A stretch of DNA of 13,892 bases, from contig JACPHL010000175.1 in NCBI GenBank assembly GCA_016188625.1, positions 1 through 13,892 of the forward strand, read 5' to 3'. The position numbers and the translations under genes were made by a program. Of the stretch, positions 138-6,564 are shown in pieces. The notes under the pieces were generated by a model. It made no database searches and was not told where the DNA came from. It saw nothing but the letters and a program-made list of their open reading frames with translations. How positions within the stretch are numbered: the first letter of the stretch is position 1; each line of letters begins with the position of its first letter. The stretch comes from Candidatus Rokuibacteriota bacterium. GTDB lineage: Bacteria; Methylomirabilota; Methylomirabilia; Rokubacteriales; JACPHL01.

Positions 138-166
138 GCCGGCCCGGACTCAAACGGCTCGCTCAA

Positions 167-320
167 TAGAGTTTGGGGGGAGGCAGGCCCCGAAGCCTTT
201 CGCCAGCGGCGAAGCCGGACTGGCGAAAGGTGGGCTTTGCCCAGGGCCGTCGGACGGGGTCCCCGCCGGGCCCGAAGGCCCGGTGGGGTGCTCGGTTGGG
301 GGGCGGAGCCCCCCTCCGAG
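167..320. repeat. Structured intergenic element after lon (three hairpins)
   Basis: This region separates the lon stop (324) from the left-edge gene and holds no gene. Read in the lon direction, three strong hairpins follow within about 125 nt of the stop. The first, 320-291, has arms CTCGG...CCGAG and GGGGGGC/GCCCCCC. The second, 288-261, is a 12-bp stem capped by a C(UUCG)G tetraloop. The third, 230-196, has an 11-bp perfect arm CCTTTCGCCAG plus an inner CGGC/GCCG stem. A small GGGC-TTT-GCCC hairpin lies at 232-242. The far end is another G6 run (175-180). No U-tract follows any stem, so these are not classical intrinsic terminators, but they probably end or protect the operon transcript. 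The first hairpin is related to the elements at 7219-7420 and 9235-9267. Confidence 0.7.
196..230 (-). terminator. Strong hairpin, possible terminator without a U-tract
   Basis: The arms CCTTTCGCCAG (196-206) and CTGGCGAAAGG (220-230) are perfectly complementary. The loop itself contains CGGC-GAA-GCCG, so the stem extends to about 15 bp with a 2-nt bulge. It lies between two minus-strand genes. A terminator role is inferred from position and stability only. Confidence 0.4.
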
Positions 321-323
321 CTA

Positions 324-2661
<2,338 letters not shown>

Positions 2662-2677: not shown

Positions 2678-3106
2678 TCACGGCCCTTCGATGTCGGGCG
2701 CGTCCCATGGTCTCGTCACCTCGAAGAACTCGTCGAGTTTGCGGAGGCTCTGCCGGGAGACCCTCACCAGGGCCTCCTCCCGGTTCTGGCGGGCCGGACC
2801 GTCCCCGCCCAGCTCCTGCCGGATGTACTCGGAGAGCGTCTCCATCTCCCGTTGCATGACGAGCATCTGGCGCCGCATCTTGATGACGATCTCCACCCCC
2901 GCCAGATTCACCCCGAGGTCGCGGGTCAGCCGGAGGATCCGCTGGATCTCCTCCACGTCCTCGGCCGAGTAGAGCCGGGTCCGGCCGACCGTGCGGCTCG
3001 GGTTGATGAGCCCCTTCTTCTCGTAGAGGCGGAGGGTCTGGGGGTGGATCCCGAGCATCTCCGCCACCACCCCGATCTGGTAGAGGGGCTTGGCGCGGCT
3101 CGTCAC
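2678..3106 (-). CDS. hspR: HspR-type MerR-family heat-shock repressor
   Basis: This 142-residue protein carries an N-terminal winged-helix MerR domain (about residues 8-75). It includes [19 protein letters not shown] and the wing [11 protein letters not shown], the signature of HspR rather than of metal- or drug-sensing MerR proteins. The C-terminal half is a coiled-coil/dimerisation helix with no cysteine cluster. In Streptomyces and Mycobacterium, HspR represses dnaK operons, clpB and lon, with DnaK acting as co-repressor; that regulation is established for the family and inferred here. The start is GTG 3106, which overlaps the dnaJ stop in a GTGA arrangement, so translation is probably coupled. 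It lies between dnaJ and lon, as expected for a self-regulated chaperone operon. An exact copy of the actinobacterial HAIR operator was not found upstream of the operon. Confidence 0.9.
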
Positions 3107-4014
3107 GCCCGTCCCCCCACCGCGTCCAGCAGCCCCGTCCTGGGGTTCTCCGGGAGGAGCCGCTCGAGGGCTCGCAGGAGCTCCTCGATCCCCGAATCCA
3201 GGTTCCGGGGGATCACGACCCGGACCGCCACGTAGAGGTCACCCCGGCCGTCCCGTCCCAGATGGGGACACCCCTTGCCCCGGACCCGGAAGAGCTGCCC
3301 GCTCTGGGTGCCGGGGGGGACGATCATCGCCGCGGGGCCGTCCGGGGTCGGGATCTGGATCCGCGCGCCCAGGACGGCCTCGGGGATGGTGATCGGCACC
3401 TCGCCGTAGAGGTTGTCCCCCTTCCGGGTGAACAGGGGGTGGGGGCGGACCCGGGTGGTCACCACGAGATCCCCCGGAGACCCGCCGGACCGCCCGGCGT
3501 GACCCTGTCCGGGGATCCGGATCTCGGCGCCGGTGTCCACCCCGCCGGGCACCGTCACCCTGATCACCGCCTGGCGCAGGCCGATCCCGCGCCCCTGGCA
3601 GGCGGGGCAGGGGGCGGCGGTCCCTGCCGCTTGGGCGCCCCGTCCCCGGCAGGCCTCGCAGGCCGTCTGGCGGGCGACCTCGATGGCGGTCGTGAGCCCG
3701 CGCACCGCGTCCTCGAAGCCCAGGTCGATGGTGTAGTGGAGGTCCTCCCCGCGGCGCGGCTCGGGCCGGTCTCCCGGTGGGGGGGAGGGCATGAAGGCCC
3801 GGTGGCCGTACCGGTCGTAGAGGGAGCGGGCCGTGGGGTCGCAGAGCACCCGGTAGGCCTCCTCGATCTCCTTGAACAGGACGGCCGCCGTCCGGTCCCA
3901 CAGGTTGACGTCCGGCGAGCACTGGCGCGCCAGGGCCCGGTAGGCCCGGCGGACCTCCTGGAGGGAGGCCCCCACGCGGACCCCGAGGACCTCGTAGTAA
4001 TCCCGCTTCCGCAT
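3103..4014 (-). CDS. dnaJ: Atypical DnaJ-family co-chaperone (SPD in place of HPD)
   Basis: J-proteins deliver clients to DnaK and trigger its ATPase. This 303-aa protein has a J domain (residues 4-70, starting RDYYEVLGV), a reduced zinc region and a C-terminal peptide-binding domain (about 145-272) with VPPGTQSGQLFRVRGKG. It departs from the family in three ways. The invariant HPD tripeptide is S33-P34-D35, with Ser encoded by TCG. The Gly/Phe-rich linker is essentially absent (residues 71-90 are Pro/Arg-rich). Only two CxxCxGxG motifs are present (C119/C122 and C136/C139) instead of four, so the second zinc site is missing. It is about 70 aa shorter than canonical DnaJ. The ATG start at 4014 has GGGAGG 9 nt upstream, and the gene lies 24 nt after dnaK. 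Family membership is certain; normal J activity is doubtful, and a canonical dnaJ may exist elsewhere. Confidence 0.9.
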   Translation of the reverse strand: MRKRDYYEVLGVRVGASLQEVRRAYRALARQCSPDVNLWDRTAAVLFKEIEEAYRVLCDPTARSLYDRYGHRAFMPSPPPGDRPEPRRGEDLHYTIDLGFEDAVRGLTTAIEVARQTACEACRGRGAQAAGTAAPCPACQGRGIGLRQAVIRVTVPGGVDTGAEIRIPGQGHAGRSGGSPGDLVVTTRVRPHPLFTRKGDNLYGEVPITIPEAVLGARIQIPTPDGPAAMIVPPGTQSGQLFRVRGKGCPHLGRDGRGDLYVAVRVVIPRNLDSGIEELLRALERLLPENPRTGLLDAVGGRA

Positions 4015-4038: not shown

Positions 4039-5961
<1,923 letters not shown>

Positions 5962-5982: not shown

Positions 5983-6465
5983 TTAGCCGACCTCGATCTT
6001 GATCTCCTTGGGCTTGATCTCCTCCGCCTTGGGGAGGCGGATCTCCAGCACGCCGTCCCGGAACCTGGCCTTGACCTTGTCGGCCTCCACCGGGATCGGC
6101 AGCGGGATGTGTCGCTCGAAGCTGCCGTAGAACCGCTCCATGCGGTGGTAGTGCTCTTCCTTGACCTCGCGGTCCTGCTTGCGCTCACCCTTGACGGTGA
6201 GCACGTCTCCGACGATCGAGACGTGGACGTCCTTCTCCTTCGCCCCGGGCAGCTCGGTCGTCACCACCAGCTCGTCGGCCGTCTCGTAGACATCGACGAC
6301 CGGGGCCCAGACCCGATCCAGCAGGCCGACGGTCCGTCCGGGCCGTCCGAAGAAGGCGTCGAAGAGGCGGTTCATCTCGGACTGGATGTCCGCCAGGTCG
6401 TGGAAGGGGTCCATCCGCTCGAGGGCCCTAAACCGGCTAAATGGACGCCATCGCCCAAGGGCCAT
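5983..6465 (-). CDS. Small heat-shock protein Hsp20 (alpha-crystallin family)
   Basis: This 160-aa ATP-independent holdase binds unfolding proteins for later refolding by DnaK. A short variable N-terminal arm (residues 1-52) contains WRPFSRF and an amphipathic MNRLFDAFFG segment. The alpha-crystallin domain (about 53-147) runs from WAPVVDVYETADELVV through ELPGAKEKDVHVSI to the signature ARFRDGVLEIRLPK. The C-terminal tail ends KEIKIEVG and carries the I-x-I motif that docks in neighbouring subunits. GTG 6468 and ATG 6465 are adjacent. I chose ATG because AAGGAGG (6480-6474) then has an 8-nt spacer. It is the first gene of the operon, about 30 nt downstream of the predicted transcription start. 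Confidence 0.95.
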   Translation of the reverse strand: MALGRWRPFSRFRALERMDPFHDLADIQSEMNRLFDAFFGRPGRTVGLLDRVWAPVVDVYETADELVVTTELPGAKEKDVHVSIVGDVLTVKGERKQDREVKEEHYHRMERFYGSFERHIPLPIPVEADKVKARFRDGVLEIRLPKAEEIKPKEIKIEVG

Positions 6466-6473
6466 CACCCATC

Positions 6474-6500: not shown

Positions 6501-6515
6501 CTTATATCATCTAAG
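6501..6515. promoter_or_regulatory. Candidate HspR operator over the -10 box
   Basis: CTTA (6501-6504), a 7-nt centre and TAAG (6512-6515) form an inverted repeat covering the operon -10. The known HspR site HAIR is CTTGAGT-N7-ACTCAAG. This has the same 7-nt centre and CTT/AAG outer bases but much shorter arms, so it is only a candidate. Confidence 0.3.
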
Positions 6516-6529
6516 TTTTTCACTGTCAA
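6501..6529 (-). promoter_or_regulatory. Promoter of the hsp20-dnaK-dnaJ-hspR-lon operon
   Basis: On the minus strand a perfect TTGACA (6529-6524) is followed by a 17-nt spacer and TATAAG (6506-6501), giving transcription from about 6494. It is in the only AT-rich stretch of the window. The -10 overlaps an imperfect inverted repeat, CTTA-N7-TAAG (6501-6515), placed where a repressor would block RNA polymerase. The housekeeping-type promoter plus a MerR repressor in the operon suggests derepression on heat shock rather than sigma32 control. No CIRCE element or sigma32-type promoter is visible. Confidence 0.8.
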
Positions 6530-6564
6530 GACTCGGCAGGTCATGATGAATTTTCTTTAATTTC

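Follow-up and report, generated by a model that had tools for sequence, protein, structure and literature searches.

The J-protein encoded in the dnaK operon of the Rokubacteriales, an order of as yet uncultured bacteria from soil and groundwater, carries a serine in place of the histidine of HPD, the single motif of J-domains that is regarded as indispensable. This SPD motif is fixed across the order and is accompanied by the loss of the G/F-rich region, by losses within the zinc finger and by an order-specific overlap with the hspR gene. These data suggest that what was once a co-chaperone turned into a J-protein that does not fire DnaK and probably has a regulatory role.

The window, that is, the whole stretch of 13,892 nucleotides analysed here, contains an operon on its minus strand with the gene order hsp20-dnaK-dnaJ-hspR-lon. 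Its features, with the evidence used for each, are:

6501..6530, minus strand: putative operon promoter and overlapping HAIR-like HspR operator (promoter comparison across loci)
5983..6468, minus strand: hsp20, small heat-shock protein (Pfam HSP20, 81.4 bits)
4039..5961, minus strand: dnaK, encoding a DnaK with canonical J-docking residues, the sole general one found in the genome (NCBIfam and interface sites)
3103..4014, minus strand: dnaJ with SPD, 303 aa (ORF translation, Pfam, 58 orthologues)
3910..3918, minus strand: SPD codons TCG-CCG-GAC, at the place of HPD (sequence and DNA pattern)
3754..3813, minus strand: short linker of about 20 aa at the place of the G/F-rich region (linker comparison)
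3598..3660, minus strand: half zinc finger, with CxxC 1 and 4 (zinc centre I) but not CxxC 2 and 3 (alignment)
3103..3106, minus strand: GTGA, 4-nt overlap of the dnaJ stop and the hspR start (53/56 SPD loci vs. 0/15)
2678..3106, minus strand: hspR, MerR-type heat-shock repressor (NCBIfam NF047375)
163..2661, minus strand: lon, conserved neighbour with a 3' end that is broken in this contig (TIGR00763, 912 bits)

The product of dnaK scored above the cut-offs of two NCBIfam DnaK equivalogs (1052 and 1020 bits), and that of hspR scored 108.5 bits with the HspR equivalog NF047375, for which the cut-off is 105. In the lon frame (window 160-450), homology ends after LPVGGI, at about residue 741, and the expected Lon C-terminal end reappears in a different frame; therefore, around 35 codons are missing and the frame is shifted, as a consequence of either an assembly fault or a real truncation.

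Conservation and origin of the SPD motif

The translation of the window dnaJ reads MRKRDYYEVLGV...ALARQCSPDVN...FKEIEEAYRVL, and its J-domain is RDYYEVLGVRVGASLQEVRRAYRALARQCSPDVNLWDRTAAVLFKEIEEAYRVL. The first-pass annotation of this DNA had reported SPD for HPD in an otherwise preserved J-domain, and both points were borne out. The serine codon lies at 3916-3918, within the interval that had been annotated, the J-domain was recognized by Pfam PF00226 with 68.6 bits (cut-off 27.8), and the fold predicted by AlphaFold2 was intact, with four helices in the J-domain (6-10, 18-32, 41-58 and 60-74) and pLDDT values mostly of 81-96. A fold search with the window DnaJ returned the expected DnaJ family alone. 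The C-terminal substrate-binding domains were also present (PF01556, 156.4 bits, with fold matches), and the zinc finger scored below the cut-off of its family (PF00684, 21.3 bits vs. 32.7). Two features had not been annotated before, namely that the G/F linker is absent and that two of the four CxxC motifs are missing.

Serine was found at this position in 58/58 distinct orthologues, retrieved from every examined Rokubacteriales genome with the operon; most of them read ARQYSPDVNFWD, and Pro34 and Asp35 were also invariant in these proteins, which share roughly half of their residues with the window protein (numbering as in E. coli DnaJ). Ser33 was encoded by TCG in 42 of them, by TCC in 10, by TCT in four and by TCA in two. 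The broken 3' end of lon on the same contig points to local assembly faults, but a sequencing error, a pseudogene or a chance substitution as the source of SPD is refuted by this conservation in full-length open frames with four synonymous codons, leaving such an origin with practically no probability. The annotation had likewise argued against an error, on the grounds that TCG and CAC differ at three positions; they do, but a change from His to Ser needs merely two (CAY to TCY).

At the DNA level, the pattern LARxxSPD[VI]N was detected in 57/59 sampled Rokubacteriales genomes and in 0/35 other genomes of the class, and the two misses were explained by the variant SPDIA in one genome (G002) and by an assembly from which the whole dnaK operon is missing in the other (G016). 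One further genome (G022) showed the SPD stretch at two contig positions (C9 and C16; L117), possibly as a contig-end duplicate of the locus. When 84,980 species genomes were scanned with a peptide pattern restricted to close flanking residues, so that SPD lineages elsewhere are possible, SPD orthologues appeared only on Rokubacterial or Methylomirabilota-labelled contigs, those carrying the orthologues being labelled Candidatus Rokubacteria or Rokuibacteriota. All 50 paralogous or outgroup J-proteins examined had HPD, among them the DnaJ encoded beside grpE in the window genome and the syntenic hspR-linked dnaJ products of the sister orders. In the phylogenetic tree, the SPD proteins formed one branch (SH-aLRT 95) adjoining the hspR-linked HPD proteins, and SPD thus arose once.

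The general DnaK and accompanying changes in the SPD clade

The window genome is a 2.6 Mb draft, 84% complete, with five J-domain matches. One of them is a DnaJ with HPD and a full zinc finger that adjoins hrcA and grpE (C240), and another is an HPD protein without zinc finger (C123). Conservation of SPD in orthologues and the existence of a second, HPD-containing dnaJ were the two computational checks proposed in the first-pass annotation, and both favour a genuine, retained feature. A further J-domain (38 bits) was also observed in a 467-residue open frame of the same genome (G000 C156:4813-4980; L004). The grpE gene sits with hrcA and the HPD dnaJ in this genome, and none was seen in the window operon or in the sister-order operons. 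In several relatives, an internal TGA suspected in CbpA-like paralogues was the normal end of the gene.

Two Hsp70 genes were found in the window genome, the operon dnaK and a second one (C79) which, together with the small J-protein gene beside it, looks like an HscA-HscB pair. A single general DnaK, encoded in the hspR-linked operon, was present in nine of 10 other genomes checked (six Rokubacteriales and three sister-order genomes; the tenth, G016, is the assembly without the operon). A second general DnaK that could have been freed for the SPD protein was found neither in the window genome nor in the Rokubacteriales genomes tested. As one general DnaK was found, the SPD protein shares it with the HPD J-proteins, and the operon DnaK must still serve the HPD DnaJ.

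The surface of DnaK that receives the J-domain was compared at residues reported or known to meet it (HPD and helix II). The positions R167, N170, T173, E217, V218, L391, L392, D393 and D477 were unchanged in 38/38 DnaKs of the SPD clade, so that no compensating change was detected at the sites examined, including L391 and R167, which are contacted by His33 and Asp35, respectively (PMC13012618). A single site of DnaK set the groups strongly apart, E. coli position 48, and it lies outside these J-contact sites. Therefore, there is no sign of DnaK adapting to Ser33, and of the functions offered in the first-pass annotation, a partner adapted to this DnaK finds no support, whereas a holdase or a regulator fits the loss of the G/F region and of zinc centre II and the overlap between dnaJ and hspR.

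On the side of the J-protein, the SPD clade keeps Y6, Y7, R22, Y25, R27, R30, P34, D35, N37 and F47, the basic residues of helix II being present in 56/58 (R22), 53/58 (R27) and 58/58 (R30) proteins. Near or on helix III, a new set of residues became fixed, namely W39 (55/58), L46 (56/58), R55 (57/58) and A62 (55/58), with F or a similar residue fixed at position 38 and usually E or D at position 48, where the HPD orthologues have K. From its sequence, this set looks like a re-purposed surface and not like decay.

The G/F region helps DnaJ to act on DnaK. In the SPD clade, the linker between the J-domain and CTD-I has a median of 15 aa (11-24), compared to 57 aa (55-63) in the HPD orthologues, so that this region is gone, and the number of Phe residues per linker is 0.8 vs. 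7.3. Zinc centre I (CxxC 1 and 4) was kept throughout the clade, whereas zinc centre II (CxxC 2 and 3) disappeared on two to three independent occasions, at least two of which rest on well-supported branches; all four CxxC motifs were kept in 11 of the 58 SPD relatives. In the passage of PMC4428491 that cites Linke 2003, zinc centre I is assigned to substrate binding and centre II to the interaction with DnaK.

Coupling to hspR and the proposed role of the SPD protein

The start of hspR and the stop of dnaJ overlap by exactly 4 nt in 53/56 SPD loci and in 0/15 HPD relatives (Fisher p 9e-13, for loci that share ancestry and are not phylogenetically independent). Overlapping genes also serve simple dosage coupling. 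Upstream of the operon, the promoter elements TTGACA (6524-6529) and TATAAG (6501-6506) overlap a HAIR-like element, CTTGACA-N7-ACTTA, the second arm of which is one base off the lineage composite. In this composite, CTTGACA-N7-ACTCA-N3-7-TATA, a sigma-70 promoter is combined with a HAIR-like element; it lies 5' of dnaK in 33/43 loci, with 35 matches in total in the 2.39 Mb of all loci pooled; as it was derived from these same promoters, the evidence is its positional enrichment and not the match itself. The lineage variant surfaced through the comparison of promoters, whereas the strict Streptomyces consensus, CTTGAGT-N7-ACTCAAG (PMC7464140), gave a single chance-like match in the window with up to three mismatches, located inside lon.

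Three precedents bear on this gene arrangement. The H. pylori J-protein CbpA, whose gene lies with hspR, binds to HspR and weakens its interaction with DNA, and DnaK is a co-repressor of HspR in Streptomyces (PMC6032397). In E. coli, CbpA is bound by the MerR-like CbpM, which occupies the DnaK face of the CbpA J-domain and places its Glu62 on His33 (PMC4063869). Together with the order-specific overlap, these cases make HspR the first candidate partner of the SPD protein, although from gene order and such distant analogues its role as the main partner can be proposed only tentatively.

In published work, the first and last residues of HPD have different roles. In simulations, H33A keeps binding and disfavours the stimulated state by 3 kcal/mol, and D35A weakens binding (PMC13012618). 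In two-hybrid and pull-down assays, DnaJ H33Q continued to bind DnaK, but it gave no support to its ATPase (PMC8262869). The ancestral gene in Methylomirabilota would have been an ordinary dnaJ linked to hspR. In the Rokubacteriales, it would have lost the His that fires the DnaK ATPase as well as the G/F region, and at a later stage zinc centre II, but kept helix II, zinc centre I, Pro-Asp and the substrate-binding domains at the C-terminal end. The SPD protein would then most likely bind DnaK-ATP, docking via helix II and Pro-Asp, together with a client, and since hydrolysis would not be accelerated it would act as a holdase or adaptor and not as a trigger. The main client would probably be the co-translated repressor HspR, which, held or presented to DnaK without a power stroke, would set the strength of repression of hsp20-dnaK-dnaJ-hspR-lon. 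The ordinary folding cycle would be run with the same DnaK by the separate HPD DnaJ encoded beside grpE.

Docking and holding without firing is the simplest reading, because the firing residue, the G/F region and mostly zinc centre II were lost and the docking parts were kept. Judged from sequence, stimulation has quite probably been lost, and docking on DnaK is likely to have been retained, if with less assurance. The explanation as a whole, a docking, non-firing holdase or adaptor with HspR as its probable target, has slightly less than an even chance of being right; that the protein is a dedicated regulatory subunit, whose SPD J-domain docks without firing and couples the occupancy of DnaK to co-translated HspR, seems possible but somewhat doubtful. 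The changes in helix III could also cut DnaK binding altogether, the nearest analogue, H. pylori CbpA, does stimulate DnaK (PMC7074700), and replacement of HPD by AAA leaves partial stimulation in some J-domain systems (PMC13012618).

That residual stimulation would also suit a co-chaperone still at work, in which Ser33 and the new helix III residues fire DnaK and SPD is a tolerated alternative to HPD, as HPE is in E. coli DjlB and DjlC with HscC (PMC13254874). The conservation of Pro-Asp and helix II and the unchanged R167 and L391/L392 of DnaK agree with it, but H33Q and similar changes abolish stimulation in the systems studied (PMC13254874, PMC8262869), DnaK shows no compensating change at the sites that meet His33 and the G/F region is also gone, so that this alternative appears unlikely. 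A somewhat better, though still low, probability is given to a stress-induced holdase independent of DnaK, its J-domain a relic scaffold, which together with Hsp20 would hold unfolded clients and later pass them to the HPD DnaJ and DnaK. The elements lost (His33, G/F region, zinc centre II), the elements retained (client-binding C-terminal domains, zinc centre I) and the presence of hsp20 in the same operon are all compatible with such a protein; however, without contact with DnaK, Pro34, Asp35 and the basic residues of helix II should drift, instead of being invariant or nearly so in 58 proteins, and the 4-nt overlap with hspR is left unexplained. The behaviour of H33A and H33Q would predict binding without firing also for a competitive brake that fills the J-site of DnaK and damps the HPD DnaJ, as mitochondrial Pam16 does on Pam18, and co-expression with the sole general DnaK would favour it. 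Nevertheless, Pro and Asp are missing from Pam16 as well, and its action relies on a J-J dimer (PMC13254874), and conserved substrate-binding domains would be superfluous in a pure brake, which makes this role highly improbable.

Whether natural departures from HPD are accidental or selected was posed as an open question in a 2026 review (PMC13254874). The SPD clade provides a natural experiment on this question: SPD arose once and is fixed throughout the order, DnaK is unchanged, and comparison is possible both with an HPD paralogue of the same cell and with the HPD orthologues of the sister orders. It tells binding (Asp) and firing (His) apart, tests whether loss of HPD can be selected and offers a candidate link between J-proteins and heat-shock control by HspR. 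If the protein is indeed a regulatory subunit, the HPD histidine would have been lost through selection for a new function and not through decay.

Comparison with known J-protein systems

The window protein departs from class A DnaJ in the HPD motif, the G/F linker, the four CxxCxGxG motifs and the score with the NCBIfam DnaJ equivalog (TIGR02349, 271 bits, below the cut-off of 377). Its closest relatives are nonetheless the class A DnaJs of hspR-linked operons, as in the sister orders of Methylomirabilota and of the S. coelicolor type, with which it shares the neighbours dnaK, hsp20 and hspR and the J and C-terminal domains. In the sister sequences, 16 syntenic homologues have HPD, within the operon dnaK-(hsp20)-dnaJ-hspR; hsp20 lies there between dnaK and dnaJ (L157, L154, L159 and relatives) and precedes dnaK in the window. 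In contrast to these proteins, the SPD clade has SPD, a linker of 15 instead of 57 aa, a zinc centre II that is usually lost and the 4-nt overlap.

With a clear J-domain and a non-conservative replacement in HPD, the SPD protein counts, by sequence, as a type IV (HPD-less) J-protein, like Pam16, DNAJB13, which has class B architecture apart from the HPD change, and the exported JDPs of Plasmodium (PMC13254874). The examples named in that review are all eukaryotic, and HPE in DjlB/DjlC is given as the only tolerated change of HPD (PMC13254874). The SPD protein differs from them in being bacterial, fixed across an order and encoded inside the dnaK operon, and in that His alone is changed and Pro-Asp kept, whereas Pam16 has DKE and DNAJB13 has HPL. 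The part of the literature searched contained no mention of bacterial SPD J-proteins, of Rokubacterial DnaJ or of a bacterial, order-wide and operon-encoded case with His alone replaced.

Its coupling to hspR, through the overlap and a product that scores as an HspR equivalog, also places the gene among those of HspR-coupled J-proteins. As in H. pylori, where cbpA belongs to the hspR operon and a direct effect on HspR was reported, a J-protein is encoded with the repressor, but H. pylori CbpA stimulates DnaK, and binding of the SPD protein to HspR is a proposal drawn from gene order. The E. coli pair CbpA-CbpM likewise consists of a J-protein gene followed by a MerR-like gene, with CbpM on the DnaK face of the J-domain; however, CbpM contacts His33, absent from the SPD protein, and has no DNA-binding residues, whereas the neighbour in the SPD operon scores as a true HspR. 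The laboratory mutant DnaJ H33Q, in which His33 is also replaced and Pro-Asp kept, binds DnaK without supporting its ATPase, and compared to it SPD is natural, fixed and accompanied by further coordinated changes.
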